DNA of 64,000 nt. It comes from Nonomuraea aurantiaca (GTDB lineage Bacteria; Actinomycetota; Actinomycetes; Streptosporangiales; Streptosporangiaceae). This document shows, in pieces, positions 46,983 through 64,000 of this stretch (the first letter of the stretch is position 1; each line of letters begins with the position of its first letter). The notes beneath the pieces were generated by a model. The model did no database searches. It was not told the DNA's origin and saw nothing but the letters and a program-made list of their open reading frames with translations. The stretch is taken from positions 1 to 64,000 of the forward strand of contig NZ_JAIWNB010000003.1 of assembly GCF_020215705.1 (NCBI RefSeq), read 5' to 3'. The position numbers were made by a program, and so were the translations under genes.

Positions 46983-47006
46983 GCTAAACTTCCAACAACC
47001 TTTTCG
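46983..47006 (+). promoter_or_regulatory. Promoter element of the first ROK gene
   Basis: GCTAAACTTCCAACAACC and the next bases match the region 53082-53105 ahead of the second ROK gene at 17 of 24 positions. TAAACT may be the -10. The 46792-46982 stretch holds no other feature I recognise. Confidence 0.45.
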
Positions 47007-47026
47007 ATTTGACGGTGGGATTCAGC

Positions 47027-48208
47027 GTGGAGCGACGCCCTGGTGTGCCCAGACTGCTCAGGGAGATCAACGACCGGGCCGCGCTGGAGTTGTTGCTGGC
47101 CACGGGCCCGATGACGCGGGGGCAGATCGGCGATCGGACCGGGTTGTCCAAGGTCACCGCTTCGCAGACGCTGTCCAGGCTGGAGGAGCGCGGGCTGGTC
47201 GAGGTCGTCGGCACGCAGGCCGGCGGGCGCGGCCCCAACGCGGCGCTCTACTCCGTCATCCCCTCCAGCGCCTACGTGGCCGGGCTCGAGGTGGGGCCCG
47301 AGCTGATCTCCGCGGCCGTCGCCGACATCCACGGCCGGACGATCGCCGAGGTCACCGTCGACCCCACCGACCTCGACGACCCGGTCTCGGTGGTGCACGG
47401 CGCGATCATGAAGGCCTGCCGCAGCGCCAAGATCAGCATCGGCCGGCTGCGCGGCGTGGTCATCGGCACCCCTGGCGTGGTCGATCCGCGCAGCGGCGAC
47501 GTGCGCTTCTCCTTCGACTTGCCGGGCTGGCACGAGGGCATCCACGAGGCGCTCGCCGGTGACCTCAAACGCGAGGTGACGATCGAGAACGACGTCAACC
47601 TGGCCGCGATCGCCGAGCGCGCCGACGGCGCCGCCCAGGGGCTCGACGACTTCGTGCTGCTCTGGTCCGCCCGTGGCCTCGGTCTCGCGGTGATGCTCGG
47701 CGGCAAGCTGCACCGGGGCCGTTCGGGCAGCGCGGGCGAGATCGGCTACCTGCCGGTGCCCGGCGTACCCCTGCCCGAGGACATCCGCACCGAGCCGGGC
47801 CGCCTGCCCTCGCTCGCGGGCGGTCTGCAGTCGCTCGTCAGCGCCGAGGCCGTGGGCGAGCTGGCGGGGAGCTACGGGTTCACGGCGGAGAGCGCCGGGC
47901 AGTGCGTGAAGGTCGCCGTGGCGGCCGGAGCCGAGGGCGAGCCCTTTCTGGACGAGATCGCGCACCGGCTCGCGCTCGGTGTGGCCTCGGTCTGCGTGAT
48001 CCTCGATCCGGGCCTGGTCGTGCTGGCGGGCGAGGTGGGCCAGGCCGGTGGCACCGCGCTGACGGCCCGGGTGGAGGAGGCCGTGGCGCGCATCTGCCCC
48101 GTACGCCCCCAGGTCGTCACCACCACGGTCACCGACAAGAACCCGGTGCTGCGCGGCGCCGTCCTCGCGGCCCTGGACCAGGCCCGCGAGGCCCTCCTCA
48201 AGCCGTGA
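47027..48208 (+). CDS. ROK-family transcriptional regulator
   Basis: A 393-residue regulator: winged helix (LLREINDRAALELLLATGPM, IGDRTGLSKVTASQTLSRLE) followed by the ROK/sugar-kinase-like sensor (VIENDVNLAAIAERADGA-type segment, SGSAGEIGYLPVPG, VILDPGLVVLAGEV). The kinase catalytic context is not complete, fitting a sensor. GTG 47027 is used, with GGTGGGA upstream. The second ROK protein at 53151-54296 is a close paralogue. It converges on the hexosaminidase gene and probably helps control the amino-sugar operon. Confidence 0.87.
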   Translation: MERRPGVPRLLREINDRAALELLLATGPMTRGQIGDRTGLSKVTASQTLSRLEERGLVEVVGTQAGGRGPNAALYSVIPSSAYVAGLEVGPELISAAVADIHGRTIAEVTVDPTDLDDPVSVVHGAIMKACRSAKISIGRLRGVVIGTPGVVDPRSGDVRFSFDLPGWHEGIHEALAGDLKREVTIENDVNLAAIAERADGAAQGLDDFVLLWSARGLGLAVMLGGKLHRGRSGSAGEIGYLPVPGVPLPEDIRTEPGRLPSLAGGLQSLVSAEAVGELAGSYGFTAESAGQCVKVAVAAGAEGEPFLDEIAHRLALGVASVCVILDPGLVVLAGEVGQAGGTALTARVEEAVARICPVRPQVVTTTVTDKNPVLRGAVLAALDQAREALLKP

Positions 48209-48255
48209 CCGGTCCGGCCCGGGCCACGAGGGGTCGGGCTCGGGCCACGATCTGC

Positions 48256-48297
48256 CCGGCTGAGACGGTGAGCAGTCCGGCTCAGACGGTGAGCAGT
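48256..48297. repeat. 21-bp tandem repeat over the end of the hexosaminidase gene
   Basis: 48256-48276 and 48277-48297 match at 20 of 21 bases (CCGGCTCAGACGGTGAGCAG core). The second copy contains the gene's stop and last codons. Confidence 0.85.
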
Positions 48298-49721
48298 TCC
48301 ACGGCCGCCTGGGCGTTCGCCCGGGCCGCGCCGTACGTCGCGATGTAGGCCGCGCTGTCCGGCCGCCAGACCGGCAGCCCCATCTCGATCACCGTCGCGT
48401 CGGGCCGGGCCGCCACCAGGGCGGAGACCAGCTCGCGGCTGGCCTCATTGCGGTGCGCGTCCTTGATCACCAGGACCAGCGACCGGTGCGTGGCCTTCGC
48501 CAGCAGCACCGGCACGTCCGCGTCGGCCGGCTTCACCCGGATGATCTCGGCCTGGGGCAGCCACGGCCCCACGCCCCAGGGCACGTCCCCGACGGCGATC
48601 GTCGGCGGTGTGTCCACCTCGATCACCAGCGGCTCGACCAGCGGTCTTGTCACGCCCGTGAGCCGCACCGCGCGCCTGGCGGCGTGCAGGCCGACCCCGT
48701 TCTGCTCGGCCGCGGGCGAAGCGGGCGAGCCGAACCACTCGCGCAGTGCCGCCAGCCGGGCCGCGGCCTCCTCCAGCCGGGCCGCGGGCAGCCGCCCCTC
48801 CCGTACGGCCGTGACGATCTCGTCGATGATGTGCCGCACGTCGTCGTAGGAAGGCAGCGGGCCCAGGCAGAGCAGATCGGAGCCCGCGGCCAGCGACAGC
48901 ACGGCGCCACCGGCCAGGCCGACGCTCTTGGTGATCGCGTGCATGTCCATCGCGTCGCTGATGACCGCGCCGTCGTACCCGAGCTCGCCCCTGAGCAGTT
49001 CGGTGAGCGCGGCGGGCGACAGCGTCGCCGGCGTCGGGCCGGTCAGCGTGGGCACCGCCACGTGCGCTGTCATGATCGACTTGGTCCCCGCGCCGATCGC
49101 CGCCCGGAACGGCACCAGCTCGCGGGCGCGCAGCACGTCGAGCGTGACGTCCACGACGGGCACGGACACGTGCGAGTCGACCCGGGTGGCGCCGTGGCCG
49201 GGGAAGTGCTTGACGCAGGCGGCCACGTTCACCGACTGCAGGCCCTGGACGGCGGCCACCGTGTGCCTGGCCACCAGCTCGGGGTCGTCGCCGAACGATC
49301 TGGTGCCGATCACCGGGTTGTCGGCCTCGGTGTTGACGTCGGCATCGGGCGCCATGTCCAGGTTGATGCCGCAGGCGGCCAGCTCCGAGCCGATCGCCCG
49401 GTAGACCCGGTGCGTGAGCTCGGTGTCGTCCACCGCGCCCAGCGCCGCGTTGCCCGGGTACGGGCTGCCGACGTGGTAGGCCAGGCGGGTGACGTCGCCG
49501 CCCTCCTCGTCCAGCGAGATGACGGGCTCGCCGGCCGCGCGCAGGGACGCGGTCAGTGACCGCAACCGGTCCGGGTCGGCGACGTTGAAGCCGAAGAGGG
49601 TGACACCACCCAGGCCGTTCTCGAGCTCGCGCAGCACCCAGCCGGGCGCCGTGGTGCCCTGGAAGGCGACGAGCAGCGTGCCGGCCGCGAGACGGCGCAG
49701 CCCCCGATCACTCTGACTCAT
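48282..49721 (-). CDS. GH3 beta-N-acetylhexosaminidase (NagZ-like)
   Basis: A 479-residue glycoside hydrolase family 3 enzyme: SLDEEGGDVTRL, acid/base loop KHFPGHGATRVDSH (K171, H172, D182, H184) and nucleophile D256 in ISDAMDM, all typical of NagZ-type N-acetylglucosaminidases. An extra C-terminal Rossmann-like domain of about 150 residues follows. No signal peptide, so it should act in the cytoplasm on imported amino-sugar or muropeptide fragments. It ends the operon that begins with the binding protein at 53012. Confidence 0.87.
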   Translation of the reverse strand: MSQSDRGLRRLAAGTLLVAFQGTTAPGWVLRELENGLGGVTLFGFNVADPDRLRSLTASLRAAGEPVISLDEEGGDVTRLAYHVGSPYPGNAALGAVDDTELTHRVYRAIGSELAACGINLDMAPDADVNTEADNPVIGTRSFGDDPELVARHTVAAVQGLQSVNVAACVKHFPGHGATRVDSHVSVPVVDVTLDVLRARELVPFRAAIGAGTKSIMTAHVAVPTLTGPTPATLSPAALTELLRGELGYDGAVISDAMDMHAITKSVGLAGGAVLSLAAGSDLLCLGPLPSYDDVRHIIDEIVTAVREGRLPAARLEEAAARLAALREWFGSPASPAAEQNGVGLHAARRAVRLTGVTRPLVEPLVIEVDTPPTIAVGDVPWGVGPWLPQAEIIRVKPADADVPVLLAKATHRSLVLVIKDAHRNEASRELVSALVAARPDATVIEMGLPVWRPDSAAYIATYGAARANAQAAVELLTV

Positions 49722-49820
49722 AGCTCCTCATCAATGGGACGTTCAGGCATTCAAGTTCAGGCATTGGAGTTTCAGGCACGGTCAGGGCGCGGCGAGGCCG
49801 CACGAAGAACCGTGGATGGG

Positions 49821-50672
49821 TCAGCCCTTGACGGCCCCGGCCACCAGACCGGAGACCATGCGGCGCTGAACCAGCAGGAAGAAGACGACGACCGGGATGG
49901 TCATCATCGTGGAGCTGGCCATGATGGCGCCCCAGTCGGTGCCCTTCTGCCCGAAGAAGTACTGCATGGCGACCGGCATCGTGTAGCCCTCCGAGCCGCT
50001 CATCAGGACCAGCGCGAAGATCAGCTCGTTCCACGCGGTGATGAACGAGAAGATGCTGGTGGCCACCAGTCCCGGCGCGACCAGGGGGAAGAGCACCTTC
50101 CAGAACGTGGTCATCCGCCCCGCGCCGTCGATCCAGGCCGCCTCCTCCAGCGACTTGGGCACGGCGGCGACGAACGTGCGCAGCATCCAGATGCCGAAGG
50201 GCAGCGTGAGCCCCACATTGACGACGATCAGGCCGGCCAGCTGGTCGTACAGGCCGAGCCGCTTGACGCTCAGGAACAGCGGGATGAGCAGCGCCTCGGA
50301 GGGGATCATCTGCACGATCAGCAGCAGGATCAGGAACGTGTTGCGCCCCTTGAACCGGAAGCGGGCCACCGCGGTCGCCGCCAGCAGGGAGAAGACCGCC
50401 CCGATGAGCACGGTGCCCACCGCCACGATCGCGCTGTTGCGCATGTAGAGCCAGATCGAGTGCCCGGCCACGCCCTCGCTCAGCACCCGGTCGACGTGCT
50501 CGAAGGTGAAATGGGTGGGGAACGGGATGAAGTCGGTGGTGAAGATCTGGTCGTTGGCCTTGAACGAGGTCGAGGCCATCCAGTACACCGGGAAGATCGC
50601 GATCAGGAACACCAGCAGCCCGGCCGCGTTCAGCGTGATCTTGCCGAGCCGTTTGCGGGCGAGCGGGGTCAC
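49821..50672 (-). CDS. Amino-sugar ABC importer permease (MalG-like)
   Basis: A 283-residue permease with six helices and EAA loop EEAAWIDGAGRMTTFWKVLF. GTG 50672 overlaps the preceding stop. The 49722-49820 gap carries three TTCAGGCA-type direct repeats. Confidence 0.87.
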   Translation of the reverse strand: MTPLARKRLGKITLNAAGLLVFLIAIFPVYWMASTSFKANDQIFTTDFIPFPTHFTFEHVDRVLSEGVAGHSIWLYMRNSAIVAVGTVLIGAVFSLLAATAVARFRFKGRNTFLILLLIVQMIPSEALLIPLFLSVKRLGLYDQLAGLIVVNVGLTLPFGIWMLRTFVAAVPKSLEEAAWIDGAGRMTTFWKVLFPLVAPGLVATSIFSFITAWNELIFALVLMSGSEGYTMPVAMQYFFGQKGTDWGAIMASSTMMTIPVVVFFLLVQRRMVSGLVAGAVKG

Positions 50673-51676
50673 ATCTCCTCCTGCTTGATGAGCTGCCTGA
50701 CGTACACCGCGGTGACGACGAGCAGGATCGCGGTCAGCACCAGGGCGATCGCCGCGCCGGAGCCCATCTTGGGCGGCGGCCGGAACGCCTCGGCATAGGA
50801 GTAGATCGACAGGTTGAACGCCTCACGGTTCGACGGCCCGCCCATGAGCACGTAGAGCTGGGCGAAGACCTTGAAGTCCCAGATGATCGACAGTACGGTC
50901 AGCACCGCGAAGACCGGCTTGAGCAGCGGAAAGGTGATCTTCCTGAACGTCCGCCATGCCGACGACCCGTCCACCCGCGCGGCCTCGTACAGCTCGGCCG
51001 GGATGCCCTTGAGCCCCGCCAGCACCGACACGGCCACGAACGGGAAGCTCGCCCAGACGACGCAGATGATCAGCACCATGTAGATGGACCACGCGTCGTT
51101 GAGCCAGGGCTGGCCGGTCCAGTCGGTCCGGCCGAAGAGCAGGCTCGACAGCCAGTCGGGCAGCAGGTTGAGTGCCCAGTTGATGACCCCGGCCTCCGCG
51201 TCGAACAGCCACTTCCAGATGATTCCCTGCGCCACCGGCGGCACGGCCCACGCGAACATGATGCCGACCACCACGAACGTGGACATCTTTCTGCCGAGCT
51301 TGTTGAGCAGGACGCCCACCGCCGTGCCGACGATCAGCGTCAGCGACACCGTGACGACGGCGAAGACGAGCGTGTTGCGCAGTGAGGACCAGAAGATCTC
51401 GTTGTCGAAGATGCGGGTGAAGTTGTCCCAGCCGACCCAGGTGGCGGGCTTCTTGCCGCTGATCTGGACCAGGCCCACCTTCTGGAAGGCGATGATCCCG
51501 ACCTGGAACAGCGGGTAGAGCAGGAGTGCCCCGATCACCAGCAGGCCGGGGATCAGCAGCACGTACGGCACCGACCAGGTGGGCAGGCCGCTGGCCCGGG
51601 CCGGGCGGTGGGAGTCGGGCCGCCGCGGGGTGGCGGACTGGCCGCCACCCCTGGCGAGCGTCGAGGTGTTCGTCAT
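50669..51676 (-). CDS. Amino-sugar ABC importer permease (MalF-like)
   Basis: A 335-residue permease with six helices and EAA loop YEAARVDGSSAWRTFRKITF. It lies 4 bp after the binding-protein gene and is coupled to the next permease. Confidence 0.87.
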   Translation of the reverse strand: MTNTSTLARGGGQSATPRRPDSHRPARASGLPTWSVPYVLLIPGLLVIGALLLYPLFQVGIIAFQKVGLVQISGKKPATWVGWDNFTRIFDNEIFWSSLRNTLVFAVVTVSLTLIVGTAVGVLLNKLGRKMSTFVVVGIMFAWAVPPVAQGIIWKWLFDAEAGVINWALNLLPDWLSSLLFGRTDWTGQPWLNDAWSIYMVLIICVVWASFPFVAVSVLAGLKGIPAELYEAARVDGSSAWRTFRKITFPLLKPVFAVLTVLSIIWDFKVFAQLYVLMGGPSNREAFNLSIYSYAEAFRPPPKMGSGAAIALVLTAILLVVTAVYVRQLIKQEEM

Positions 51677-51680
51677 AGGG

Positions 51681-53012
51681 CTAGGAGGCGGCGTTGAGGA
51701 TGTCTTCGAGCTCCTTGTTGGCCTTGGCCAGCGCGTCGTCGGCCGACGACTTGCCCTCGATCACCGTGCGGGCCGCGTTCTGCAGCACCGCCTTGGTCTC
51801 GTTGGCCTCGGTCCAGTGCGGGCTGGCCGGGAAGGCCTTGGCCTTGGCGAAGGCGGCGGCGAACGGCGCCTGGGCCGGGTCGCTGGCCAGCGCGGCCAGG
51901 GCGTCCGGGTAGACGGGGAGCAGGCCGCCGTCCTTGGCGTACTTGTCGCCCCACTCCTTGCCGGAGGCCAGCTTCACGAACTCCTTGGCCGCGTCCTTCT
52001 CCTTGGCGCCACCCCACACGGCGATGTCGTTGCCGCCGAGGAAGGACTGCGCCTCGCCGCCGTCCTTGGACGGGAGCGGGAAGAAGGCCAGCTTGTCGCC
52101 CTTGAGCTTGCCCTTGCTGTCCTCGGCGATGCCCGGCAGGTCCCACGACGCGGTGAGGTACATGCCCACCTTGTTGTTGGCGAAGCGGGTGCGGATGTCC
52201 GTGGTGTTCTGGGTGAGCCGCGACTTGCTGGACAGGCCGTCGGTGACCAGGCCGGTGTACTGGGCGAAGCCGGACTTGAAGGCGGGGTCGGTCAGCTTGC
52301 CGACCCACTTGTCGCCCTCCTTGACGGCGTAGTCGCCGCCGGCGGTCCAGGCGAGGGCGCCCAGCAGGTGGTTGGCGTCGGAGCCGCCGTTGAAGGCGAA
52401 CCCGTCGACGTCCTTGCCCTTCTTGGACTGGATCTTCTTGGCCGCGGCGACCAGGTCGTCCCAGGTCTTCGGGACCTCGAGCTTGAGCTCCTTGAACCAG
52501 TCGGCCCGGTACAGGACCGCCCGGCTGCCGCCGCCCCACGGCACGGCGTAGGTCTCACCGTCGATCGTCTCCAGGCCCATCAGGTTCTTCGGGATCTGCG
52601 CCTGGTCGCCCGAGGCGACGATGTCGGTGACGGGTTCGAGGGCCTCCTGGCTCTGCCACAGCGGCACCTGGTCGTTGCCGATCTCGGTGACGTCGGGGCC
52701 GGTGCCACCGGCCGCCGCGGCGGTGAACTTGTCGTTCACCTGCGGCCACGGGATCCACTCCACCTTCACCTTGGCGCCGGTCTGCTGCTCGAAGGCGGCG
52801 ACCAGCTCGTCGGTGTACTTCTGTGCGGCGGGGTTGCTGTCGCCCAGTCGCCAGAAGGTCAGCTCCTTGCCCGCGTACTTGGGGCCGGACGCGGGGGCGG
52901 AGGCCGCCGCACTCGGCGAAGCCGCGGGCGTCCCGCCGGAACCACAGGCGGCCAGGCCCAGGGCCAGAGCGGCCGTGGTGACCGTAGTGGCGGTGATCTG
53001 CGCGATCCTCAC
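51681..53012 (-). CDS. Amino-sugar-binding lipoprotein
   Basis: A 443-residue solute-binding protein, lipobox LAAC near residue 22 (ALALGLAACGSGG), Ala/Ser/Pro linker, then LTFWRLGDSNPAAQK. GTG 53012 has GGGAGAA upstream. With the two permeases, a GH3 hexosaminidase and ROK regulators it resembles chitosan/chitobiose or muropeptide-sugar importers of actinomycetes. Like the other sugar importers here it has no dedicated ATPase. Confidence 0.87.
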   Translation of the reverse strand: MRIAQITATTVTTAALALGLAACGSGGTPAASPSAAASAPASGPKYAGKELTFWRLGDSNPAAQKYTDELVAAFEQQTGAKVKVEWIPWPQVNDKFTAAAAGGTGPDVTEIGNDQVPLWQSQEALEPVTDIVASGDQAQIPKNLMGLETIDGETYAVPWGGGSRAVLYRADWFKELKLEVPKTWDDLVAAAKKIQSKKGKDVDGFAFNGGSDANHLLGALAWTAGGDYAVKEGDKWVGKLTDPAFKSGFAQYTGLVTDGLSSKSRLTQNTTDIRTRFANNKVGMYLTASWDLPGIAEDSKGKLKGDKLAFFPLPSKDGGEAQSFLGGNDIAVWGGAKEKDAAKEFVKLASGKEWGDKYAKDGGLLPVYPDALAALASDPAQAPFAAAFAKAKAFPASPHWTEANETKAVLQNAARTVIEGKSSADDALAKANKELEDILNAAS

Positions 53013-53081
53013 AGGGTTCTCCCTTCCCGGGTGCTCGCTTGCGGTCCGCACCAGGCTGATCTGCATGTCCGAACGACTGCT

Positions 53082-53105
53082 GCTAAACTAACAAGAAACT
53101 TTCTT
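53082..53105. promoter_or_regulatory. Divergent ROK operator region
   Basis: AAGAAA-C-TTTCTT at 53093-53105 is a perfect palindrome between the binding-protein gene and the second ROK gene. The adjacent GCTAAACT is shared with the promoter of the first ROK gene. GAAACTTTC-type palindromes are, from memory, used by ROK regulators of chitosan genes in Streptomyces. Confidence 0.6.
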
Positions 53106-53150
53106 AAAAAAAACGCCCGTTAGCCATTCGTGACGAGAGGGAGCGCGTCG

Positions 53151-54296
53151 ATGAGCCGAAGCCCGGGGACCCCTCGGCTGCTCCGCCGGTTGAACGACCG
53201 CACGGCACTCGAACTCCTCCTGGAGGACGGGCCGCTGACCCGTGCGGAGCTCGGTGAGCGGACCGGCTTGTCCAAGGTGACCGCAGGTCAGCTGCTCGCC
53301 CGGCTGGAGGAGCGGGGGCTGGTCCGGGTGGCGGGGGAGCGGGCGGGCGGCAGGGGTCCGCACGCGGCCCTGTACGCGGTGAACCCGTCCAGCGCGTACG
53401 TCGCCGGGCTCGAAGTGCTGCCCGACAGCCTCACCGTGGGTGTGGCGGACATCACAGGACAGATCGTGGTCGAGGTCACCGTCAACCCGGCGGACGGGGA
53501 TCCGGTCAAGGCCGTGCACTCCGCCGTCCAGCGGGCCTGCGCCTCGGCTCGCGTCAGCCTGTCACAGCTGCGCGCCTTCGTGATCGGCACCAGAGGCGTG
53601 GTCGATCCGGGCAGCGGCGACGTGCGCTTCTCCTACGACCTGCCGGCCTGGCACGTCGGCGTGCTGGCCAGCCTGCGCCAGACGCTGGGCGTCCCGGTGA
53701 TCATCGAGAACGACGTGAACCTGGTCGCGCTGGCCGAGCACCGCTACGGCGCCGCCGCCGGATACGACGATTTCGTGGTCATCTGGGCGGGTGTCGGCCA
53801 GGGGCTGGGCGTCATGCTCGGTGGCCGGCTGCACCGGGGCATCACCGGGACGGCGGGTGAGATCGGCTGGCTGCCCGTGCCGGGCGAGCCGCTGCCCGTC
53901 GACGTGTCGCAGCCGACCTCGGGCTCCTTCCAGCGGCTGGTCGGGCACGACGCGCTGAGCGGGCTCGCCACCGCGCACGGCGTGCTCGGCACCACGGTCC
54001 CCGACCAGGTACGCAACGGCTGCGACGGGTACCTGGACGAGGTGGCGGCCCGCCTGGCGGTGGGAGCGGCGGCCGTGACGGTCGTGCTCGACCCGGGCCT
54101 GATCGTGCTCAGCGGCGACGTCGGGCGGGCGGGCGGCGAACGCCTGGCCGCCAAGGTCGAGGAGGCCGTCGCCCGGGTCTGCCCGACCCGGCCCAAGGTC
54201 GTCACGACCGGGGTGGCGGGCAATCCGGTGCTGCGCGGCGCCCTGGTCGCGGCTTTGGCGCAGGCCCGAGATCAGGTTTTCTCCGACACTGTGTGA
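53151..54296 (+). CDS. ROK-family transcriptional regulator, second copy
   Basis: A 381-residue paralogue of the protein at 47027-48208: PRLLRRLNDRTALELLLEDG, ELGERTGLSKVTAGQLLARL, then VVDPGSGDVRFSYDLPAWH, IENDVNLVALAEH, GTAGEIGWLPVPG. ATG 53151 has GAGGGAG upstream; a GTG at 53130 is also in frame. It is divergent from the importer operon it probably represses. Confidence 0.88.
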   Translation: MSRSPGTPRLLRRLNDRTALELLLEDGPLTRAELGERTGLSKVTAGQLLARLEERGLVRVAGERAGGRGPHAALYAVNPSSAYVAGLEVLPDSLTVGVADITGQIVVEVTVNPADGDPVKAVHSAVQRACASARVSLSQLRAFVIGTRGVVDPGSGDVRFSYDLPAWHVGVLASLRQTLGVPVIIENDVNLVALAEHRYGAAAGYDDFVVIWAGVGQGLGVMLGGRLHRGITGTAGEIGWLPVPGEPLPVDVSQPTSGSFQRLVGHDALSGLATAHGVLGTTVPDQVRNGCDGYLDEVAARLAVGAAAVTVVLDPGLIVLSGDVGRAGGERLAAKVEEAVARVCPTRPKVVTTGVAGNPVLRGALVAALAQARDQVFSDTV

Positions 54297-54308
54297 GAAT
54301 TTCTGCCT

Positions 54309-54968
54309 ATGTGGCAGCCCACGAGCGACATCGTGTTGATCTCTGATCCCCGCGTCGCCGCGATCCCGGTGCGCGACAACGGCGAGGAACTGGCGGACGT
54401 ACGCGGCCGCCTGCGCGTGGACGAGCGGATGGCCGACCACGCGGGTGCCTACGCGCACCTGCGGTCCGGGCTGCTGGCGCGGCTGGAGCGGGCCGAGCGG
54501 CGGCTGCCCGACGGCTTCCATTTGCTGGTCGTCGAGGGCTATCGGCCGATCGACACGCAGCGCCGCATCTTCGAGGAGTACCGCGACGGGCTGCGCGCCG
54601 CCTTCCCCGACATGTCGCCTGACGAGGCATATATCGCGGCAAGTCGGTATGTGTCGCCAGTCGAGGTGGCCCCGCACACCGCCGGAGCCGCCGTCGACCT
54701 GACGCTCAGCGCGCCCGACGGCACGGAGTACGACATGGGCACCCAGGTCAACGACAACCCGGAGGAGAGCGACGGCGCCTGCTACATGGAGGCCACGAAC
54801 ATCTCGGCCGACGCCCGCGCCCATCGCAAGATCCTCGCTGACGCCCTGGAGCCTGTCGGCCTGGTCAACTACCCGACGGAGTGGTGGCACTGGTCCTTCG
54901 GCGACCGGTATTGGGCACTGGCCGAGGGAAGACCGTACGCACTCTATGGCCCACACCGCTTTGCCTAG
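54309..54968 (+). CDS. D-alanyl-D-alanine dipeptidase (VanX/DdpX-like)
   Basis: A 219-residue zinc dipeptidase with H123 and D130 (PHTAGAAVDL), E191 and H194 (EWWHWS) and R79 (VEGYRP), matching VanX catalytic positions. It hydrolyses D-Ala-D-Ala, either for wall recycling or vancomycin-type protection. No vanH/vanA genes are adjacent, so recycling in concert with the hexosaminidase is more likely. No signal peptide. It starts 12 bp after the ROK gene, as a probable operon. Confidence 0.92.
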   Translation: MWQPTSDIVLISDPRVAAIPVRDNGEELADVRGRLRVDERMADHAGAYAHLRSGLLARLERAERRLPDGFHLLVVEGYRPIDTQRRIFEEYRDGLRAAFPDMSPDEAYIAASRYVSPVEVAPHTAGAAVDLTLSAPDGTEYDMGTQVNDNPEESDGACYMEATNISADARAHRKILADALEPVGLVNYPTEWWHWSFGDRYWALAEGRPYALYGPHRFA

Positions 54969-54991: not shown

Positions 54992-56077
54992 GTGACTCCT
55001 CTTATCGGGATCGAGGAGGAGTACCTCATCGTCGATCCCTGGTCGCGCCACGTGGCTCCCCGGGCGGCAGAGGTGTTGGCCGCCGCGACGGACGTCCTAG
55101 ACGTCGTTCACGAGATCACCCGTTTCCAGGTCGAGGCCCGTACCGCTCCTTCGGCCGACCTCGGTGAGTTAGGCACGCGGCTGAGGGCCGCGCGCAAGGA
55201 GGTGTCCCAGGCGGCCCGCTCGTGCGGGCTGGCCGTGGTCGCCAGCGGCATTCCCGTCCTCGGTGACGTCGTGCCGATTCCGCTCACCGACGACGTCCGT
55301 TACGAGCAGGGCCGGATCCTCTACCGCGCGCTGCAGGACGAGCTCACCATCTGCGCCCTGCACGTGCACGTGGACGTCCCTGACGAAGAACAGGCCGTCT
55401 ACGTCGGCAACCATCTGCGCCCGTGGCTGCCCACGCTGATCGCGCTGGCCGCGAACTCGCCCTTCTTCGTGGGGCGCGACACCGGCTACGCGTCCTGGCG
55501 GGTGATCAGCTGGGGCCGCTGGCCGGTCTCGGGCGCACCGCCGTACTTCCCGTCGTACGCCGACTACGAGCTGGCGCTGCGCGCGCTGTCGCAGTCGGGC
55601 GCGCTGATGGACCCCAAGACGGTGTACTGGGACGCGCGCCCGTCACCCTCGCTGCCGACCGTCGAGGTGCGCGTCGCCGACGTGCCGCTGGACGTCAGCG
55701 ACAGCCTCACCATCATCGGGTTGATCCGCGGTCTGGTCGTGACCGCGCTGGCCGCCGTGGCGCGCGGTGACCGCGGCCTGCCGATCCCGTCGGAGGTCGT
55801 ACGGGCCGCCTACTGGCGAGCGGCCCGCGACGGCCTGGGCGGCCACAGTCTCGACGTACGCGAGGGTGCGCTGGTGCCGGCGCGGGTGATGGCGGGCCGT
55901 CTCCTGGATCACGTACGGGACGCCACGGCCGAGGCCGGTGACCTGCCGTTGGTCGAAGAAGGGCTGGACCGGCTGCTCGGCAGGGGTTCCGGAGCGGAGC
56001 GGCAGCGCAGGGCGCACGCCCGCACCGGGCACCTGGCGGCGGTCGTGGACGACCTGATCGAAGCCACTGTCGCCTGA
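54992..56077 (+). CDS. Carboxylate-amine ligase (YbdK/GCS2 family)
   Basis: A 361-residue ATP-dependent ligase of the glutamate-cysteine ligase type 2 family: IGIEEEYLIVDP, HVHVDVPDEEQAV, TVEVRVADVPLDV. Related enzymes form gamma-glutamyl bonds weakly or act on unknown amines. GTG 54992 is used; extension upstream would run into the VanX-like gene. It converges on the gamma-glutamyltransferase operon, 4 bp from its last gene. Confidence 0.85.
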   Translation: MTPLIGIEEEYLIVDPWSRHVAPRAAEVLAAATDVLDVVHEITRFQVEARTAPSADLGELGTRLRAARKEVSQAARSCGLAVVASGIPVLGDVVPIPLTDDVRYEQGRILYRALQDELTICALHVHVDVPDEEQAVYVGNHLRPWLPTLIALAANSPFFVGRDTGYASWRVISWGRWPVSGAPPYFPSYADYELALRALSQSGALMDPKTVYWDARPSPSLPTVEVRVADVPLDVSDSLTIIGLIRGLVVTALAAVARGDRGLPIPSEVVRAAYWRAARDGLGGHSLDVREGALVPARVMAGRLLDHVRDATAEAGDLPLVEEGLDRLLGRGSGAERQRRAHARTGHLAAVVDDLIEATVA

Positions 56078-56081
56078 CCGG

Positions 56082-56831
56082 TCAGCGCAGGGCGAGCACG
56101 GTTGCCACGCCGAGCCCGAAGACGACCACCACGCCGCGCAGCACCGCGGGCGGCATGAGCCGGGCCAGACGGGTGCCGAGGAAGCCACCCGCCAGGCTCG
56201 CCGGCGCGACCACCGCCACCGCCTCCCACCGCACGGGCCCGAACAGCGAGAACGCCACCACCGACACCGTGCTGATCACCAGTGACAGGGTGGCCCGCAC
56301 GGCGTTGACCCGATGCAGGTCGTCATGGAGGAACAGCCCGAGCACCGCCAGCAGCAGCACCCCCATGCCGCCGTTGAAGTAGGCGCCGTAGCAGCCGCCC
56401 AGGAACACCCCGACGTGGACCAGCCCGCTGGTGCCCTGCCGCCCGTCACCCTCGAAGCGCCCGCGCAGCCACGGCTGGGCCAGCAGCGCCAGGCTGGCGA
56501 AGGCCACCAGCCACGGCACCAGCGAGTCGAACAGCCGCCCCGGTGTGAGCAGCAGCAGCGAGCTGCCCGCGATCGCGCCGAGCACGGTGGTGGCCGAGAG
56601 CACGGTGGCCCGGCGCCGCTGCCCGCGCAGCTCGGCCCGGTAGCCCAGGACGCCGCCCAGGTAGCCGGGCCACAGCGCCACCGCGTTCGTCACCGAGGCG
56701 GTGATGCTCGGATAGCCGAGCGTCAGCAGCGCCGGGAAGGAGATCAGCGTGCCCCCGCCGGCCAGGGCGTTGACCGCCCCGGCCAGCAGTCCCGCCCCGG
56801 CCAGGAAGGCCAGCTCGGACAGCTCGATCAT
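56082..56831 (-). CDS. TauE/SafE-family anion (sulfite) exporter
   Basis: A 249-residue membrane protein of about eight helices: LLAGAVNALAGGGTLISFPA, VTNAVALWPGYLGGVLGYR, GGCYGAYFNGGMGVLLLAVL, SLAGGFLGTRLARLMP. Family members export sulfite or sulfoacetate or import sulfur anions. ATG 56831 overlaps the gamma-glutamyltransferase stop (ATGA), so it is the last gene of that operon; disposal of sulfite from thiol breakdown would fit. Confidence 0.85.
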   Translation of the reverse strand: MIELSELAFLAGAGLLAGAVNALAGGGTLISFPALLTLGYPSITASVTNAVALWPGYLGGVLGYRAELRGQRRRATVLSATTVLGAIAGSSLLLLTPGRLFDSLVPWLVAFASLALLAQPWLRGRFEGDGRQGTSGLVHVGVFLGGCYGAYFNGGMGVLLLAVLGLFLHDDLHRVNAVRATLSLVISTVSVVAFSLFGPVRWEAVAVVAPASLAGGFLGTRLARLMPPAVLRGVVVVFGLGVATVLALR

Positions 56832-58639
56832 CGGCCGGCCGCGTAGCCCTGGGCGCCGCGCGGGTTGGCGGCGGCCTTCAGGAAGCCGCCGTCACGGGCG
56901 ACGGCGCTGAGCCGGCCGAGCGACCACGGCCCCTGCACCTCCACCTGGTGGCCACGTCGCCGTAGCTCGGCGACGACCGCCGGGTCCACCCGGTTCTCGA
57001 TGTGCATGACGCCCGGCCGGGAGCCGCGCGGGAAGAACGAGCTGGGGAAGTGCTCGGAGTGGAACATGGGGGCGTCGACGGCCTGCTGCAGGTTGAGCCC
57101 GCCGTTGGCGAGGGAGCCGTGGACGAGGGAGAGGAAGAAATTCAGGCTCCACTGGTCCTGCTGGTCGCCGCCGGGCGTGCCGAACGCCAGCCACGGCTTG
57201 CCGTCGCGCAGCGCGAACGACGGCGACAGCGTGGTGCGCGGGCGCGTGCCCGGTCGCAGCGAGGCGGGCAGCCCCTCCTGCAGCCAGAACATCTGCGCCC
57301 GGGTGCCGAGGCAGAAGCCCAGCTCGGGAATGGTGGGCGAGCTCTGCAGCCAGCCGCCGCTCGGCGTGGCGGAGACCATGTTGCCGTGCCGGTCCACGAC
57401 GTCCACGTGACAGGTGTCGCCACGGGTGGAGCCGTCGGAGCCGACCGTGGGCTCGCCCACACCGGACCGTACGCCCGAGATGCCCGGCGCGGTGCTGCCC
57501 GTGCCGGCACCCGGGAACACCCGCAGCCGAGGCGTGCGCCCGCCGGGCGCGCCCGGCCGCAGCTCCATGCTGGCCTCGACGCCGATGATCGCGCGCCGCT
57601 TGGCGCTGTACTCGTCATCGAGCAGGTCGGCCATCGGTACTTCGGTGTCGCCGTACCAGGCTTCGCGATCGGCGAAGGCGAGCTTGGCGCTCTCGATCAC
57701 CGTGTGCACGTAGTCGGCGCTGAGCTGCCCCATCCCGTCCAGGTCGAACCCCGACAGCAGGGCGAGCTGCTGCAGGAAGACCGGCCCCTGCCCCCACGGG
57801 CCCGTCTTGCAGACTGTGTGCCCGTGGTAGTCGAAGGTGACCGGCTCCTCGACCGACGCCGACCAGCCCGCCAGGTCGTCGCCGGTGAGCAGGCCGCCGT
57901 GGACCTCGCCCGAGCTGTCGCGCCAGGCGGTCTCGGCGCTGAACCGGGCGATCGCCTCGGCGACGAACCCCTGGTACCAGGCGTCGCGGGCGGCCGCGAT
58001 CTGCCCCTCGCGGGTGCTCGACGCGGCCCGCGCCTCAGAGACGAGCCGGCGGTAGGTGGCGGCGAGCACGGGATTGGTCAGCTTGGCTCCTGGTACCTTC
58101 CCCTGCGGCAGCCAGGTCGCGGCGGACGTCGGCCAGTCCTCGAGGAAGAGGCGCTCGACCGACGAGACCGTGGCGGCGATCCGGTCGAGCACCGGGACGC
58201 CGTGGGTGGCGTAGTGGATGGCGGGTTCGAGCACGTCGGCCAGCGTCCAGGTGCCCCAGCGCTCCAGCATGAGCATCCAGCCGCCGAACGCCCCGGGCAC
58301 GGTGGCCGCCAGCAGCCCGGTGCCGGGCACCACGTCGAGCCCCAGGCCGGTGAACCGGTCGATCGTGGCGGCGGCGGGGGCGACGCCCTGCCCGCACACG
58401 ACCGACACCTGCTCCTCGTCCTGGCTCCACAGCAGGATGGGCACCTCGCCGGCGGGCCCGTTCAGGTGCGGCTCCGCCACCTGAAGGACGAACCCGGCGG
58501 CGACGGCCGCGTCGAAGGCGTTGCCGCCGCGTTCGAGCACGCTCATGCCGGTAGCGGAGGCCAGCCAGTGCGTGCTGGCCACCATGCCGAAGTCTCCGGT
58601 CAGCTCGGGCCTGGTGGTGAACAAACTGCGTCCCTTCAT
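56828..58639 (-). CDS. Gamma-glutamyltransferase family protein
   Basis: A 603-residue Ntn-hydrolase that should self-cleave ahead of the catalytic Thr in GDTCHVDVVDRHGNMV. MVASTHWLASATGMSVLERG, GGNAFDAAVAAGF and FGTPGGDQQDQW are family motifs. Known members release glutamate from glutathione or gamma-glutamyl amides. There is no signal peptide, so it appears cytoplasmic, unlike the periplasmic classic enzyme. It is coupled to the upstream ATPase gene (ATGA) and to the downstream TauE-type gene. Confidence 0.87.
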   Translation of the reverse strand: MKGRSLFTTRPELTGDFGMVASTHWLASATGMSVLERGGNAFDAAVAAGFVLQVAEPHLNGPAGEVPILLWSQDEEQVSVVCGQGVAPAAATIDRFTGLGLDVVPGTGLLAATVPGAFGGWMLMLERWGTWTLADVLEPAIHYATHGVPVLDRIAATVSSVERLFLEDWPTSAATWLPQGKVPGAKLTNPVLAATYRRLVSEARAASSTREGQIAAARDAWYQGFVAEAIARFSAETAWRDSSGEVHGGLLTGDDLAGWSASVEEPVTFDYHGHTVCKTGPWGQGPVFLQQLALLSGFDLDGMGQLSADYVHTVIESAKLAFADREAWYGDTEVPMADLLDDEYSAKRRAIIGVEASMELRPGAPGGRTPRLRVFPGAGTGSTAPGISGVRSGVGEPTVGSDGSTRGDTCHVDVVDRHGNMVSATPSGGWLQSSPTIPELGFCLGTRAQMFWLQEGLPASLRPGTRPRTTLSPSFALRDGKPWLAFGTPGGDQQDQWSLNFFLSLVHGSLANGGLNLQQAVDAPMFHSEHFPSSFFPRGSRPGVMHIENRVDPAVVAELRRRGHQVEVQGPWSLGRLSAVARDGGFLKAAANPRGAQGYAAGR

Positions 58640-59600
58640 CGATTGACGGCTGCGTCGGGTACGTGATCCGCCGTGACCAGGTGACAGGCGACCGGGTGGC
58701 CGCTCGTACGGGGGTCTGTCAGTGCCGGCTCGCTCGTCCGGCAGGCGTCGTACGCCAGCGGGCACCGGGTGTGGAAGCGGCAGCCGGCGGGCGGATCGAC
58801 CGGGCTCGGCACGTCGCCGCCCAGCACGATCCGGCGCCGCTCGCGCTGCCTGACCGGGTCGGCCACCGGCGCCGCCGACAGCAGCGCCTGGGTGTAGGGG
58901 TGGCGGGGTTCGGCGAAGATCTGGGCCGTCGGCCCGGACTCCACGATCTTGCCCAGGTACATCACCGCGACCCGGTCGGCCAGGAACTCCACCACCGACA
59001 GGTCATGGGTGATGAACAGGCAGGAGAAGCCCATCTCCCGCTGCAGGTCGGTGATCAGGTTGAGCACCGACGCCTGCACCGACACGTCCAGCGCGGACAC
59101 CGGCTCGTCGGCCACCACCAGCTTGGGCTCCAGGATCAGCGCGCGGGCCAGCCCCACCCGCTGCCGCTGCCCGCCGGACAGCTCGTGCGGGAAGCGCGAC
59201 CTCATCTCCGGGCGCAGCCCGACCTGCTCCAGCATGGCGGCGACCCGCCCGCCCGCCTCGCGGCGGCTCGCGATCCCGTGGTGCAGCAGCGGCTCGCCGA
59301 CGATCTGCTCGATCGTGAAGCGCGGGTTGAGCGAGGAGTAGGGGTCCTGGAAGACCATGTGGACGTCCCTGCGCAGCGGGCGCATGGCCCGGCGCGACAG
59401 GTGGGTGATGTCCCGGCCGTCGAGCCGGATGCCGCCCGAGGTGGGCTCGGTCAGCCGCAGCACGCACTTGCCGACGGTCGACTTGCCGCTGCCAGACTCG
59501 CCGACCAGGCCGAGCACCTCGCCCTGGCCGATGCTCAGCGACAGGCCGTCCACTGCGCGTACCTGGCCGTAGTGCTTGACCAGATTGTCGATCTCCAGGA

Positions 59601-59604
<4 letters not shown>
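58636..59604 (-). CDS. Oligopeptide ABC transporter ATPase (DppF/OppF-like)
   Basis: A 322-residue ATPase: Walker A GESGSGKST, Q-loop VFQDPYSSLNP, signature LSGGQRQRV, Walker B LVVADEPVSALDVS and the C-terminal oligopeptide-transporter domain with Cys-rich GCRFHTRCPLAYDAC. GTG 59604 overlaps the preceding stop (GTGA). Confidence 0.93.
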
Positions 59605-60565
<961 letters not shown>

Positions 60566-61441: not shown

Positions 61442-62393
61442 GCCCGCCTCCCGACAGCCGGATGCGGGGGTTGAGGAAGGCGTACGCGATGTCGACCAGG
61501 AGGTTGACCAGCACGTACCCGATGACCGTGATCAGCACCACGGCCTGGATGACGGGGTAGTTGCGGGTGAGCACGGCGTCCACGGTCAGCTTGCCGAAAC
61601 CGGGGATGACGAAGATCTGCTCCGTCACCACCGCGCCGCTGATCAGCGCGCCGAGCTGCAGGCCCAGGACGGTCACCACGGTCGTGAGGCTGTTGCGCAG
61701 CGCGTGCGCGCCCACCACCTTGGCCTCCGACAGGCCCTTGGACCGGGCGGTCCGTACATAGTCGGCCGACAGCGCGCCCAGCATGGCCGAGCGCGTCTGC
61801 CGCATCAGGATCGCCGCGAACCCGGTGCCGAGCACCAGGGCCGGAAGGATCATGCGCTGCAGGTTCTGGCCGGGGTCCTGGGTGAACGGGACGTACCCGG
61901 AGGCGGGCAGCCAGCGCAGCGTCACCGCGAACAGCAGGATGCCGAGCAGCCCCAGCCAGAAGTGCGGCACGGACAGCCCCGCCAGGCCGAAGCCGGTGGC
62001 CACGTAGTCGGGCAGCCGGCCCCGCTTCATCGCGGCCACGATGCCCGCGCCCAGGCCCACGACGATCGCCACCAGCAGGGCCAGCGCCGACAGCTCCAGC
62101 GTCACCGGCAGCCGCTCGGCCAGGATGTCGGCCACCGGCAGCTGGTCCTGGGTGGAGCGGCCGAGGTTGCCGGACAGGGTCTGGCCGACGTAGTCGACGT
62201 ACTGGGCCAGCAGGGGCTTGTCCAGGCCGAACTCGTGGCGGATCGCCTCGACCATGGCGGGCGAGGCCTCCTCGCCGGCCATCACCACGGCCGGGTCCCC
62301 GGGCAGCGCCCTGATCCCGAGGAAGATCAGGATGCTGGCCAGGAACAGCACGATCACCGCCGAGCCCGCTCTGCGGAGGATGAACCAGACCAT
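61434..62393 (-). CDS. Oligopeptide ABC transporter permease (DppB-like)
   Basis: A 319-residue permease: FILRRAGSAVIVLFLASILI, DKPLLAQYVDYVGQTLSGNL, YVRTARSKGLSEAKVVGAHA (coupling loop). Overlaps DppC-like gene by 8 bp and the binding-protein stop by 1 bp. Confidence 0.92.
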   Translation of the reverse strand: MVWFILRRAGSAVIVLFLASILIFLGIRALPGDPAVVMAGEEASPAMVEAIRHEFGLDKPLLAQYVDYVGQTLSGNLGRSTQDQLPVADILAERLPVTLELSALALLVAIVVGLGAGIVAAMKRGRLPDYVATGFGLAGLSVPHFWLGLLGILLFAVTLRWLPASGYVPFTQDPGQNLQRMILPALVLGTGFAAILMRQTRSAMLGALSADYVRTARSKGLSEAKVVGAHALRNSLTTVVTVLGLQLGALISGAVVTEQIFVIPGFGKLTVDAVLTRNYPVIQAVVLITVIGYVLVNLLVDIAYAFLNPRIRLSGGGHG

Positions 62394-64000
62394 CAGGCGG
62401 CGAACCCAGCGGTGACGAAGCGGGGCAGGCCATCCTTGAAGTACTGGACACCGGCGACGGTCTTGTTCATGCCCAGGTAGTACTTGTTGTGGTACAGGTA
62501 CACCACGCCGCGCACCTCGGCCGCCCGCTGCAACGCCTTGGCGTACAGCTCGGCGCGCTGGGCCGGCTCCGTGACCGCCGCGGCCTCCTTGATCGGGTCG
62601 TCGATGCCGGGGTCGGACATGCCGCTGTAGTTGTTACTGCCCCGGCTGGTGATCAGGTTCGACAGGTTGCCGTCCGGGTCCACCCGGCCCGACCAGCCGT
62701 TGAGCACGGTGTCGAACTTGCCGGCCTTGCCCTGCTCCAGCGTGCTGACGAACTCGGCCGTCTGCACCGTGACGGTGAAGCCCGCCTCCTTGGTCATCTG
62801 CTGGATGACCTGCGCCAGGCGCTGGTTGGTGGCGTCGTTGGGCGTGGTCAGCGTGACCGGGATCGGCGTCGGCACACCGGACGCCTGCACCAGCTGCTTG
62901 GCCTTGGCCAGGTCGCGCTTGGCGCACTGGAGCGCGGGCGAGCGGTAGGGGCTGTCGGCGGGCAGCGGGAAGCAGTCGGCCTCGTACAGGCCGTTGTAGA
63001 CGGTCTTGTTGATCTGGTCGCGGTCCAGCGCCAGCTCGAACGCCTCCCGCAGCTGCGGGCTCTTGGCCAGCGGGGTGTCGACCGTGCCCGGCTTCTCGGT
63101 GGAGCCGTTGGCGTTGCCGGTGTTGATCGTGAGGCCGTAGTAGCCGAGGCCGCCGCCGGACACGACGGTGAGGTTCGGGTCGGCCTGCACGCCCTTGACC
63201 GTGGTCGTGGCCAGCTGGTCGGCCACCTGGACGTCGCCGGACTTCAGGTTCGCGGCCCGTACGTTCGGGTCGACGATGATTTTGTATACGAGCTTGTCGA
63301 GCTTCACCTTGGCGGCGTCGTAGTAGTCGGACGCCTTGTCCAGCACGATCTGGCTGCCGGAGGTGCGACTGGCGAACTTGAACGGCCCGACGCACACCGG
63401 GCTGGCGCCGAAGTTGTCGCCCGCCGCCTCCAGCGCCTTGGGCGACATGATCATCCCGGCGCGGTCGGCGAGCTGCGCCGTCAGCGGCGTGAACGCGCGC
63501 GCCAGCGTGAGCTTGACGGTGGCCGGATCGACCACGCTCACCTTCGACACGGCGGCCAGGTCGGCCTGGCGGGCCGACTTCTCCCAGGTACGGTGGCGAT
63601 CCAGCGACTTCTTGACCGCCTCCGCGTCGAAGGCGGTGCCGTCGTTGAACTTCACGCCCTCGCGCAGCTTGATCGTCACTTCCCTGCCGTCGGCCGAGAC
63701 CTCGGGCAGGGCGGTCGCGAGCTGCGGGACCAGCGCGGCCTTCGCGTCGATGTCGAAGAGCTTCTCGCACATGCTCGCGAACACCTCGCGGCCCACCAGC
63801 GTGGTGGACACGCTCGGGTCCAGCGCGTCGGGGTCGGCGTTGAGCGCGATGTTCAGGGTGCCACCGCTCTTGACGGCGCGGCTGTCGGACGAGGCGTCGG
63901 CCACTGACGGGGCGACGGGGGTGCCGCTCGAACCGCCTCCACCGCAAGCCGTCAGGGCTATAGGGAGTACGGCGAGCGTCAAGACCAGCCTGGGTCTCAT
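62393..64000 (-). CDS. Peptide-binding lipoprotein (family 5)
   Basis: A 535-residue solute-binding protein; lipobox LTAC near residue 19 (VLPIALTACGGG). GGTLNIALNADPDALDPS is the usual start of family 5 binding domains for peptides or glutathione; YSGMSDPGIDDPIKEAA is near the end. The ATG lies at the last base of the window and gives a complete signal peptide, but an upstream start cannot be excluded. It heads the operon with the permeases, ATPases, gamma-glutamyltransferase and TauE-like exporter, so glutathione or gamma-glutamyl peptides are plausible ligands. Confidence 0.9.
   Translation of the reverse strand: MRPRLVLTLAVLPIALTACGGGGSSGTPVAPSVADASSDSRAVKSGGTLNIALNADPDALDPSVSTTLVGREVFASMCEKLFDIDAKAALVPQLATALPEVSADGREVTIKLREGVKFNDGTAFDAEAVKKSLDRHRTWEKSARQADLAAVSKVSVVDPATVKLTLARAFTPLTAQLADRAGMIMSPKALEAAGDNFGASPVCVGPFKFASRTSGSQIVLDKASDYYDAAKVKLDKLVYKIIVDPNVRAANLKSGDVQVADQLATTTVKGVQADPNLTVVSGGGLGYYGLTINTGNANGSTEKPGTVDTPLAKSPQLREAFELALDRDQINKTVYNGLYEADCFPLPADSPYRSPALQCAKRDLAKAKQLVQASGVPTPIPVTLTTPNDATNQRLAQVIQQMTKEAGFTVTVQTAEFVSTLEQGKAGKFDTVLNGWSGRVDPDGNLSNLITSRGSNNYSGMSDPGIDDPIKEAAAVTEPAQRAELYAKALQRAAEVRGVVYLYHNKYYLGMNKTVAGVQYFKDGLPRFVTAGFAA

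Follow-up and report, generated by a model that had tools for sequence, protein, structure and literature searches.

Organization of the Locus

Within the window, that is the whole 64,000-nucleotide stretch of Nonomuraea aurantiaca DNA analysed here, seven genes form an island at positions 47027-54968. At its left end, ROK1 (47027-48208, + strand; PF00480, 119 bits) encodes a ROK-family repressor with an N-terminal winged HTH. The - strand then carries NagZ1 (48282-49721; PF00933, 235 bits), a NagZ-type GH3 beta-N-acetylglucosaminidase predicted to be cytosolic, a MalG-like (49821-50672) and a MalF-like (50669-51676) ABC sugar permease, the ORFs of which overlap by 4 bp, and a lipoprotein solute-binding protein of the sugar class (SBP, 51681-53012; PF01547, 145.6 bits). 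Divergently from the SBP gene, ROK2 (53151-54296, + strand; PF00480, 106.6 bits) encodes a second ROK-family repressor, and a VanX-like M15 metallopeptidase gene (54309-54968, + strand; PF01427, 57.5 bits for a cut-off of 27) begins 12 bp after it. A putative operator, composed of CTAAACTAACAAGAAACTTTCTTAAAA and a downstream GTTAG half (53083-53122, strand not assigned), lies in the intergenic region from which SBP and ROK2 diverge. An operator-like site is found in the ROK1 promoter (46984-47010, + strand), 16 bp before the ROK1 start. The initial annotation had described an importer, a cytoplasmic NagZ-like hexosaminidase and a VanX-like dipeptidase bracketed by two paralogous ROK regulators, and all of these genes are indeed present.

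The island core is kept in all 64 Streptosporangiaceae loci examined. These synteny counts leave aside L079-L085, where the SBP matches are at 26-30%, as well as L086-L114, which are largely repeats of named loci. The VanX-like gene is present in 58 of the 64 loci, and in 57 of the 61 having more than 1 kb of sequence past ROK2. Four loci lack it despite sufficient room, which weighs against the salvage reading developed below. In 52 of the 58 VanX-bearing loci, the gene is within 60 bp of ROK2, with a spacing of -4 to +23 bp. In Thermomonosporaceae, the NagZ and permease genes overlap by 4 bp in 6/6 loci. To the right of the island, the GCS2, TauE-like, GGT and Opp genes were considered as possible members and left out because of their limited distribution: GCS2 occurs in 28/64 Streptosporangiaceae loci and, among the matches listed, GGT, TauE and a close Opp match occur in Nonomuraea loci only, [Actinomadura] parvosata (L049) being grouped with Nonomuraea for this purpose.

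The Importer and NagZ1

The SBP carries a LAAC lipobox, the A22-C23 pair of which is invariant in the SBP alignment. Its structural model (pLDDT 86) is closest to folds that bind beta-glucosides and other saccharides; the best 50 matches of the structure search fall within Z 39.0-41.1 and have many different saccharide ligands. Cellobiose and sophorose are among the ligands of the solved relatives, which also include the chitin-oligosaccharide protein NagB1. The best-scoring binding-protein profile is that of NgcE (TIGR03851), at 54.6 bits, far under its cut-off of 399.65 bits.

NagZ1 has the N-terminal domain and the KHFPGHG....DSH catalytic loop of NagZ-type GH3 enzymes, and this loop aligns with those of 6k5j and 4zm6, its best solved relatives. 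The protein scores 175.7 bits against NF003740, below the 207 bits required by this NCBI equivalog, and no signal peptide was seen by eye. The earlier proposal of an amino-sugar importer paired with a cytosolic NagZ-type enzyme is supported. It may be imagined that the island instead takes up an unrelated beta-glycoside, for instance cello- or sopho-oligosaccharides, and that its GH3 has another specificity. The closest binding proteins of known structure have ligands such as cellobiose and sophorose, in agreement with this idea, and the same resemblance to beta-glucoside binders counts against the salvage of a GlcNAc disaccharide. However, the GH3 has the NagZ-type KHFPGHG....DSH motif and finds its best matches among beta-GlcNAcases, and the sister clade of the importer is linked to NagZ, AnmK and MurQ, so that uptake of such a beta-glycoside appears quite unlikely.

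The VanX-like Dipeptidase

In 34 VanX-like sequences, the zinc and catalytic residues R79, H123, D130, E191 and H194 are invariant. They match those of VanX (1r44) in an alignment consistent with an M15 fold, and the model superimposes on 1r44 with Z 13.8 and an rmsd of 3.7 over 166 aligned residues, its pLDDT being only 71.7. The score against NF033115 is 42.3 bits, below the 320-bit cut-off of this NCBI VanX family. The protein thus shares its M15D fold and catalytic residues with the VanX of the vanHAX glycopeptide-resistance system. In contrast with that system, vanH, vanA and vanRS are absent from the island, where the VanX-like gene is paired with ROK2 and has ROK2 and a GCS2-family gene as neighbours. 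A second VanX-like protein of the same genome, encoded beside a PafA-like gene, is 56% identical to that of the island. ROK2 and the VanX-like gene apparently form a widely conserved operon, and this conserved pairing points to a wall component.

With NagZ and the VanX-like gene both adjoining the importer, sugar-peptide fragments could be imagined to enter through it and to have their peptide ends attacked by the dipeptidase. Nevertheless, the SBP belongs to the sugar class (PF01547) and most closely resembles folds that have plain saccharides as ligands, VanX is known for acting on free dipeptides, and Opp-type peptide importers (named by eye, on contig C78) are encoded elsewhere. Moreover, AnmK and MurQ are found at separate loci. 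The uptake of peptides or muropeptides suggested by the initial annotation is therefore not upheld, and we consider it very unlikely.

The Two ROK Proteins and Their Operators

Alignment of ROK1 with ROK2 gives 59% over 392 residues. Both match the ROK domain (PF00480) and MarR_2, as expected for ROK repressors, and their recognition helices are near-identical. The CxCGxxGC zinc motif, a feature of Mlc and NagC, is absent from both, as well as from the CsnR-like ROK encoded elsewhere in the genome. Judging from their sequences, ROK1 and ROK2 are the products of one duplication that predates the radiation of the family.

The proposed 17/24 match between the two ROK promoters was recovered exactly (46983/53082), and the best register gives 18/24 (46980/53079), a value reached by none of 300 dinucleotide shuffles of both upstream regions. 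In the whole 11.85-Mb genome, the CTAAACTNNCAANAA pattern occurs in these two promoters only, with no occurrence of the reversed-pattern controls. Scanning the window with a weight matrix built from the ROK2 sites of relatives ranks the ROK2/SBP operator first (60.2 bits), the ROK1 site second (14.6) and the next hit third (7.2). Because the background of the matrix may contain the ROK2 operator itself, single exceedances in it are not clean.

The core of the SBP/ROK2 operator is AAGAAACTTTCTT, and the exact 18-mer core occurs once in the genome. Two further 18-mer matches with three mismatches were discarded as CsnR-like boxes, one of them at a GH18 chitinase. The operator contains the palindrome AAGAAA-C-TTTCTT, flanked by outer CTAAC...GTTAG; an inverted-repeat search of both promoters with a minimum length of 8 returned nothing, the AAGAAA-C-TTTCTT arms being shorter. 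In the operator alignment, from which L037 and L040 were left out, TAAACTAAC is invariant because it was used as anchor; the independent figure is its presence upstream of ROK2 in 63 of 64 relatives. The operator is near-identical in six Thermomonosporaceae loci. By comparison, the site in the ROK1 promoter reads as an eroded descendant of the ROK2/SBP operator: a near-complete copy stands upstream of ROK1 in L065, and the site is unrecognisable in L018 and L053. This erosion is another point against the preferred reading. The view of the two ROKs as paralogous twins is borne out, and they have a common operator ancestor as well as near-identical recognition helices. Cross-talk, each ROK acting on the site of the other, is plausible, but tempered by the erosion of the ROK1 site.

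Comparison With CsnR and Das Systems

The published CsnR box is AGGAAANTTTCCT, and Streptosporangium roseum is reported to have many such boxes at chitin genes, and no DasR (PMC6097792). This box is the closest counterpart of the SBP/ROK2 operator and a relative of it. As in the csnREFGHK chitosan-oligosaccharide system of Streptomyces, where binding of CsnR is weakened by chitosan oligomers, the gene for a ROK repressor lies beside those for an ABC-type sugar importer and a cytosolic hydrolase, and both operators are based on A(A/G)GAAANTTTC(C/T)T. However, AGGAAANTTTCCT was not found in the island, where the core is AAGAAACTTTCTT and the operator has AAGAAA...TTTCTT plus outer CTAAC...GTTAG. 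The importer is followed by a GH3 NagZ rather than by GH4 and a kinase, and there are two ROKs and a VanX-like gene. In addition, the same genome holds a separate CsnR-like locus (C67) with an importer, with GH4-like and BadF-like ORFs (named by eye) and a CsnR box starting 36 bp before the ORF of the CsnR-like ROK. Nine perfect CsnR boxes occur in the genome, outside the island, including sites at two GH18 chitinases, at NagZ2 and at the CsnR-like locus.

The gene content also recalls the chitobiose system DasABC-DasD of Streptomyces, with an SBP, two permeases, a shared ATPase and an intracellular beta-N-acetylglucosaminidase. The Das system is controlled by DasR, of the GntR type, whereas the island regulators are ROK repressors. 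A second model can be drawn from these systems, in which chitobiose or short chito-oligosaccharides would be imported and cleaved to GlcNAc by NagZ1, as in DasABC-DasD, with VanX hitchhiking on the ROK2 transcript or acting on another substrate. The resemblance of the ROKs and operator to CsnR and its box, the situation in S. roseum, the NgcE profile, NagB1 and the separate sister importer in genome G175 (see below) all argue for it. Conversely, the genome's own chitin genes have the CsnR box and not the island operator, the CsnR-like locus already provides an importer, and the VanX pairing is kept in 52/58 loci. We regard chitin salvage as a serious possibility, somewhat short of probable.

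Possible Links to Wall Recycling

Sister importers occur in SBP-permF-permG-NagZ-AnmK-(SSF)-MurQ operons (L216 and L218), which favours wall fragments as substrates. When one of the L218 permeases is compared with the N. aurantiaca genome, the island permease is the top match (55%, 4.5e-80), followed by one at 39%. The linkage to AnmK and MurQ was seen in 2 of the 14 regions read, in the sister clade only and not with the island importer, and this low count speaks against a wall source. In NagZ trees, the long branches L216, L217 and L218 group together, so that their order is unsure. Genome G175 has both importer types (L221 and L222), which suggests that island and sister importers may differ in substrate and also goes against the wall reading.

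All enzymes of the AnmK-NagZ-MurQ anhydroMurNAc recycling modules, which in L216 and L218 comprise the sister importer and NagZ, are encoded in the N. aurantiaca genome. Compared with these modules, the island is without AnmK and MurQ, has ROK instead of RpiR/MurR, and has VanX in addition. AnmK (contig C2) and MurQ (contig C78) lie outside it. A separate AnmK-GHL10-NagZ3-RpiR locus has its own NagZ, which likewise disfavours a wall role for the island. Matrix scans found no island operator at the MurQ locus L152 (best -5.4 bits), the AnmK locus L232 (-1.9 bits), the RpiR/amidase locus L233 (3.4), L216 (-10.8) or L218 (-12.1). Its lack at the genome's own AnmK-NagZ3 and MurQ loci is a further argument against the wall reading.

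A Model for Disaccharide Salvage

Considering these data together, we give about even chances to the view that the island forms a salvage operon, kept under repression, for a beta-linked disaccharide of GlcNAc that stems more likely from wall turnover; between wall and chitin as the origin of the disaccharide, the wall is somewhat more likely. In such a model, the SBP lipoprotein would capture the disaccharide, and the two permeases would import it using a shared ATPase encoded elsewhere. In the cytosol, NagZ1 would release GlcNAc from it. ROK2, and probably ROK1 too, would bind the CsnR-like operator in the SBP-ROK2 intergenic region, from which the imported sugar, or GlcNAc derived from it, would release them, thereby opening the importer-NagZ1 and ROK2-VanX transcripts together. 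With a wall source, the substrate would be GlcNAc-MurNAc or GlcNAc-anhydroMurNAc. D-Ala-D-Ala is the final unit that goes into the wall precursor. VanX would clear this dipeptide during wall salvage, and repression would stop it from draining the precursor pool while salvage is off.

As far as the titles and abstract openings of the literature searched show, the island itself has not been described, and wall-sugar import in Nonomuraea and its relatives, which produce glycopeptide antibiotics, has been little studied. If right, the model names a conserved importer, hydrolase, operator and dipeptidase, each of which can be tested separately. It would also make a duplicated repressor and its operator traceable from the duplication, as in Rhizohabitans with its near-complete operator copy, to divergence, as in Nonomuraea with its eroded one. 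It is tempting to go further and to imagine a wall-salvage switch common to the Streptosporangiaceae: when the family arose, one ROK duplicate would have come to share an operon with a VanX-type dipeptidase, and detection of a wall disaccharide would directly license D-Ala-D-Ala hydrolysis. Such a scenario is rather unlikely; if true, it would couple salvage with the synthesis of the wall and perhaps with tolerance to glycopeptides.

Organization and conservation of the island

At 47027-54968 of the window, the genes occur in the order ROK1 (+), a NagZ-type GH3 hydrolase (NagZ1, -), two ABC permeases (-), a sugar-class binding lipoprotein (SBP, -), ROK2 (+) and a VanX-like M15 peptidase (+). 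The gene coordinates of the initial annotation agree with this reading to the base. No ATPase gene was seen within 47027-54968; in streptomycetes, sugar importers usually lack an ATPase of their own and share MsiK, as described in the available part of PMC6167110. The genome is a draft of 11.85 Mb. Further downstream (54992-59724 and 62393-64000) are found a GCS2-family ligase, a TauE-like permease, a gamma-glutamyltransferase and a dipeptide/GsiB-like ABC system, a set linked to the island only in Nonomuraea loci.

One scan of named genomes, restricted to the best 80 of 113 relatives, gave 77 distinct loci, of which 64 from Streptosporangiaceae and 6 from Thermomonosporaceae were analysed, 7 distant loci being left out. 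Among these best 80, the closest named loci are the Nonomuraea loci L009 and L067, with 96-97% identity in SBP. All 64 Streptosporangiaceae loci have a ROK gene in divergent orientation to the SBP gene, and NagZ after the permeases. ROK1 lies directly after NagZ in 50 of the 59 loci with room, and slightly farther from it in L025. It is absent from this spot in nine loci with room; in these nine genomes and in two with incomplete loci, ROK1 (77-89%) and ROK2 are both present, ROK1 being elsewhere in the assembly. VanX accompanies 58 of the 64 loci (57/61 where more than 1 kb extends beyond ROK2) and was not found in L031, L033, L038 and L062, all with room. The distance from the ROK2 stop to the VanX start is -4 to +23 bp in 52 of these 58 loci, 134 and 149 bp in two, and 1.2-2.8 kb in four. 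The six Thermomonosporaceae loci have a single ROK, with neither a second ROK nor VanX, and their NagZ and permease genes overlap by 4 bp, whereas a gap of 33-242 bp is found in the 64 Streptosporangiaceae loci. Four SBP matches (L093, L096 and genomes G004 and G070) carry one TAG within the aligned stretch, possibly because the alignment extends past the stop.

Nature of the imported substrate

NagZ1 has a GH3 N-terminal domain and a KHFPGHG....DSH loop. Its best solved relatives, 6k5j and 4zm6, are both named beta-N-acetylglucosaminidases, and it scores under the NCBI NagZ equivalog cut-off (175.7 vs 207). Alignment of the VanX-like protein to VanX 1r44 spans the GYRP, H..G.A.DLT and EWWH motifs, which in VanX contain zinc-binding residues; across 34 sequences, including that of a paralogue, the motif residues do not vary. 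This second VanX-like protein (L124:6271-6966, contig C45 of the same genome) is 56% identical to that of the island, and its gene adjoins one that is PafA-like (Pup ligase) by eye. The model of the island protein (pLDDT 71.7) matches 1r44 at Z 13.8, followed by LdcB at Z 10.0. With the SBP model (pLDDT 86.1), numerous saccharide-binding proteins score Z 39-41, and those ranking highest mostly bind beta-glucosides; the model thus does not single out a ligand.

That wall disaccharides are imported may be given an even chance. Permeases were searched for across the class; matches at E <= 1e-75 came from 42 of 345 genomes, and 14 regions were then read. Two actinobacterial ones (L216:4276-13655 and L218:4451-12300) are SBP-permF-permG-NagZ-AnmK-MurQ operons, with an SSF gene before MurQ in L216, RpiR regulators and BadF-type kinase genes. 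MurQ is labelled there from 45-55% identity to the MurQ of N. aurantiaca, which itself passes TIGR00274. These operons apparently provide ABC-type uptake of anhydroMurNAc disaccharides, and within the N. aurantiaca genome no other permease matches that of L218 nearly as well as the one in the island. A wall source is favoured because sister-type importers thus occur in AnmK-MurQ operons, and VanX favours it too, since D-Ala-D-Ala is a wall building block. The competing idea, import of chito-oligosaccharides, is tentative but deserves serious weight. Several observations count against a wall source. In the permease tree, L216-L219 and L222, among them the two AnmK-MurQ importers, form a sister clade to the island type, and one genome (G175) has both types. 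N. aurantiaca also has separate AnmK and MurQ loci. On contig C2 (L232:8237-13603), adjacent genes encode AnmK, a protein resembling GHL10 glycosyl hydrolases, NagZ3 (the third GH3 of the NagZ type) and an RpiR regulator, likely a dedicated wall-sugar locus; contig C78 (L152:1-9593) carries an Opp-type importer (by eye), a NamZ exo-muramidase that shows no obvious signal peptide, MurQ and a gene resembling those of beta-lactamases. The island operator was found at neither locus.

Operator and history of the two regulators

The promoters of ROK1 and ROK2 had been said to match at 17 of 24 positions, which is exact. The top 24-base match between the two upstream regions is 18, a value reached in none of 300 dinucleotide shuffles (mean 14.3, maximum 17), and the common pattern CTAAACTNNCAANAA occurs at these two places only in the whole genome. 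TAAACTAAC is present upstream of ROK2 in 63 of 64 relatives; aligned on it, the 62 usable sites have the form CTAAACTAACAAGAAACTTTCTTAAAAGAAAC..CGTTAG, and the six Thermomonosporaceae sites the form GTAAACTAACAAGAAACTTTCCTAA... With a weight matrix built from the relatives' ROK2 sites, the ROK1 promoter site has the second-best score in the window. Among 50 ROK1 upstream regions scored, 37 exceed every sampled window of their own locus and 13 do not, those of L018 and L053 having no recognisable site. Rhizohabitans (L065) retains a nearly complete copy upstream of ROK1, CTAAACTAACAAGAAGGGTTCTTAAGA. We read the putative ROK1-promoter site as a copied operator undergoing decay.

A tree of 36 ROK proteins places ROK1 (16 rows, support 96/88) and ROK2 (14 rows, support 94/99) in one group each, with Rhizohabitans basal in both. 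A single ROK duplication therefore took place before the Streptosporangiaceae radiated, the tree leaving the root among the ROK1, ROK2 and single-ROK groups unplaced. In the recognition-helix region, ROK1 and the single ROKs carry TGLSKVTASQ, and most ROK2 proteins have TGLSKVTAGQ or TGLSKVTSGQ there. Mean identity between ROK1 and ROK2 is 74% in the HTH and 58% in the ligand domain.

Relation to known systems

The Csn system of Streptomyces, with a ROK, an ABC importer and an intracellular hydrolase, is of the same kind as the island. The Das operon shares importer and hydrolase but has another regulator, according to the portion of PMC12370203 available. As far as the literature searched shows, the duplicated ROKs, the distinct operator and the ROK2-VanX pair are new. 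In a survey of actinobacterial van genes, vanHAX is reported within Streptosporangiales only in Actinomadura, and the accessible sections make no mention of a ROK-linked VanX (PMC8698665).

The island operator core is similar to the CsnR consensus AGGAAANTTTCCT published in PMC6097792. ARGAAANTTTCYT is matched exactly at 11 places in the genome (21 sites at <=1 mismatch; 6 for the reversed-pattern control). Nine of the 11 are perfect CsnR boxes, another is a hybrid, and the last is the island core AAGAAACTTTCTT, unique in this genome. One of the CsnR boxes begins 36 bp upstream of a ROK ORF whose product is 46% identical to ROK1. Others are found at two GH18 chitinases and at a second NagZ (47% to NagZ1). 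The remaining boxes have as neighbours an ABC importer, an alginate-lyase-like gene, a sugar dehydrogenase bearing carbohydrate-binding modules, and genes without assignment. Loci with perfect CsnR boxes include L123, L153, L156 and L158. The presence of such boxes at two GH18 chitinases, at a GH3 of the NagZ type and at an importer locus of the CsnR kind agrees with published findings on Streptosporangium roseum. Judging from the distribution of these sites, the chitin genes of N. aurantiaca appear to be under the CsnR box and the island under an operator of its own.
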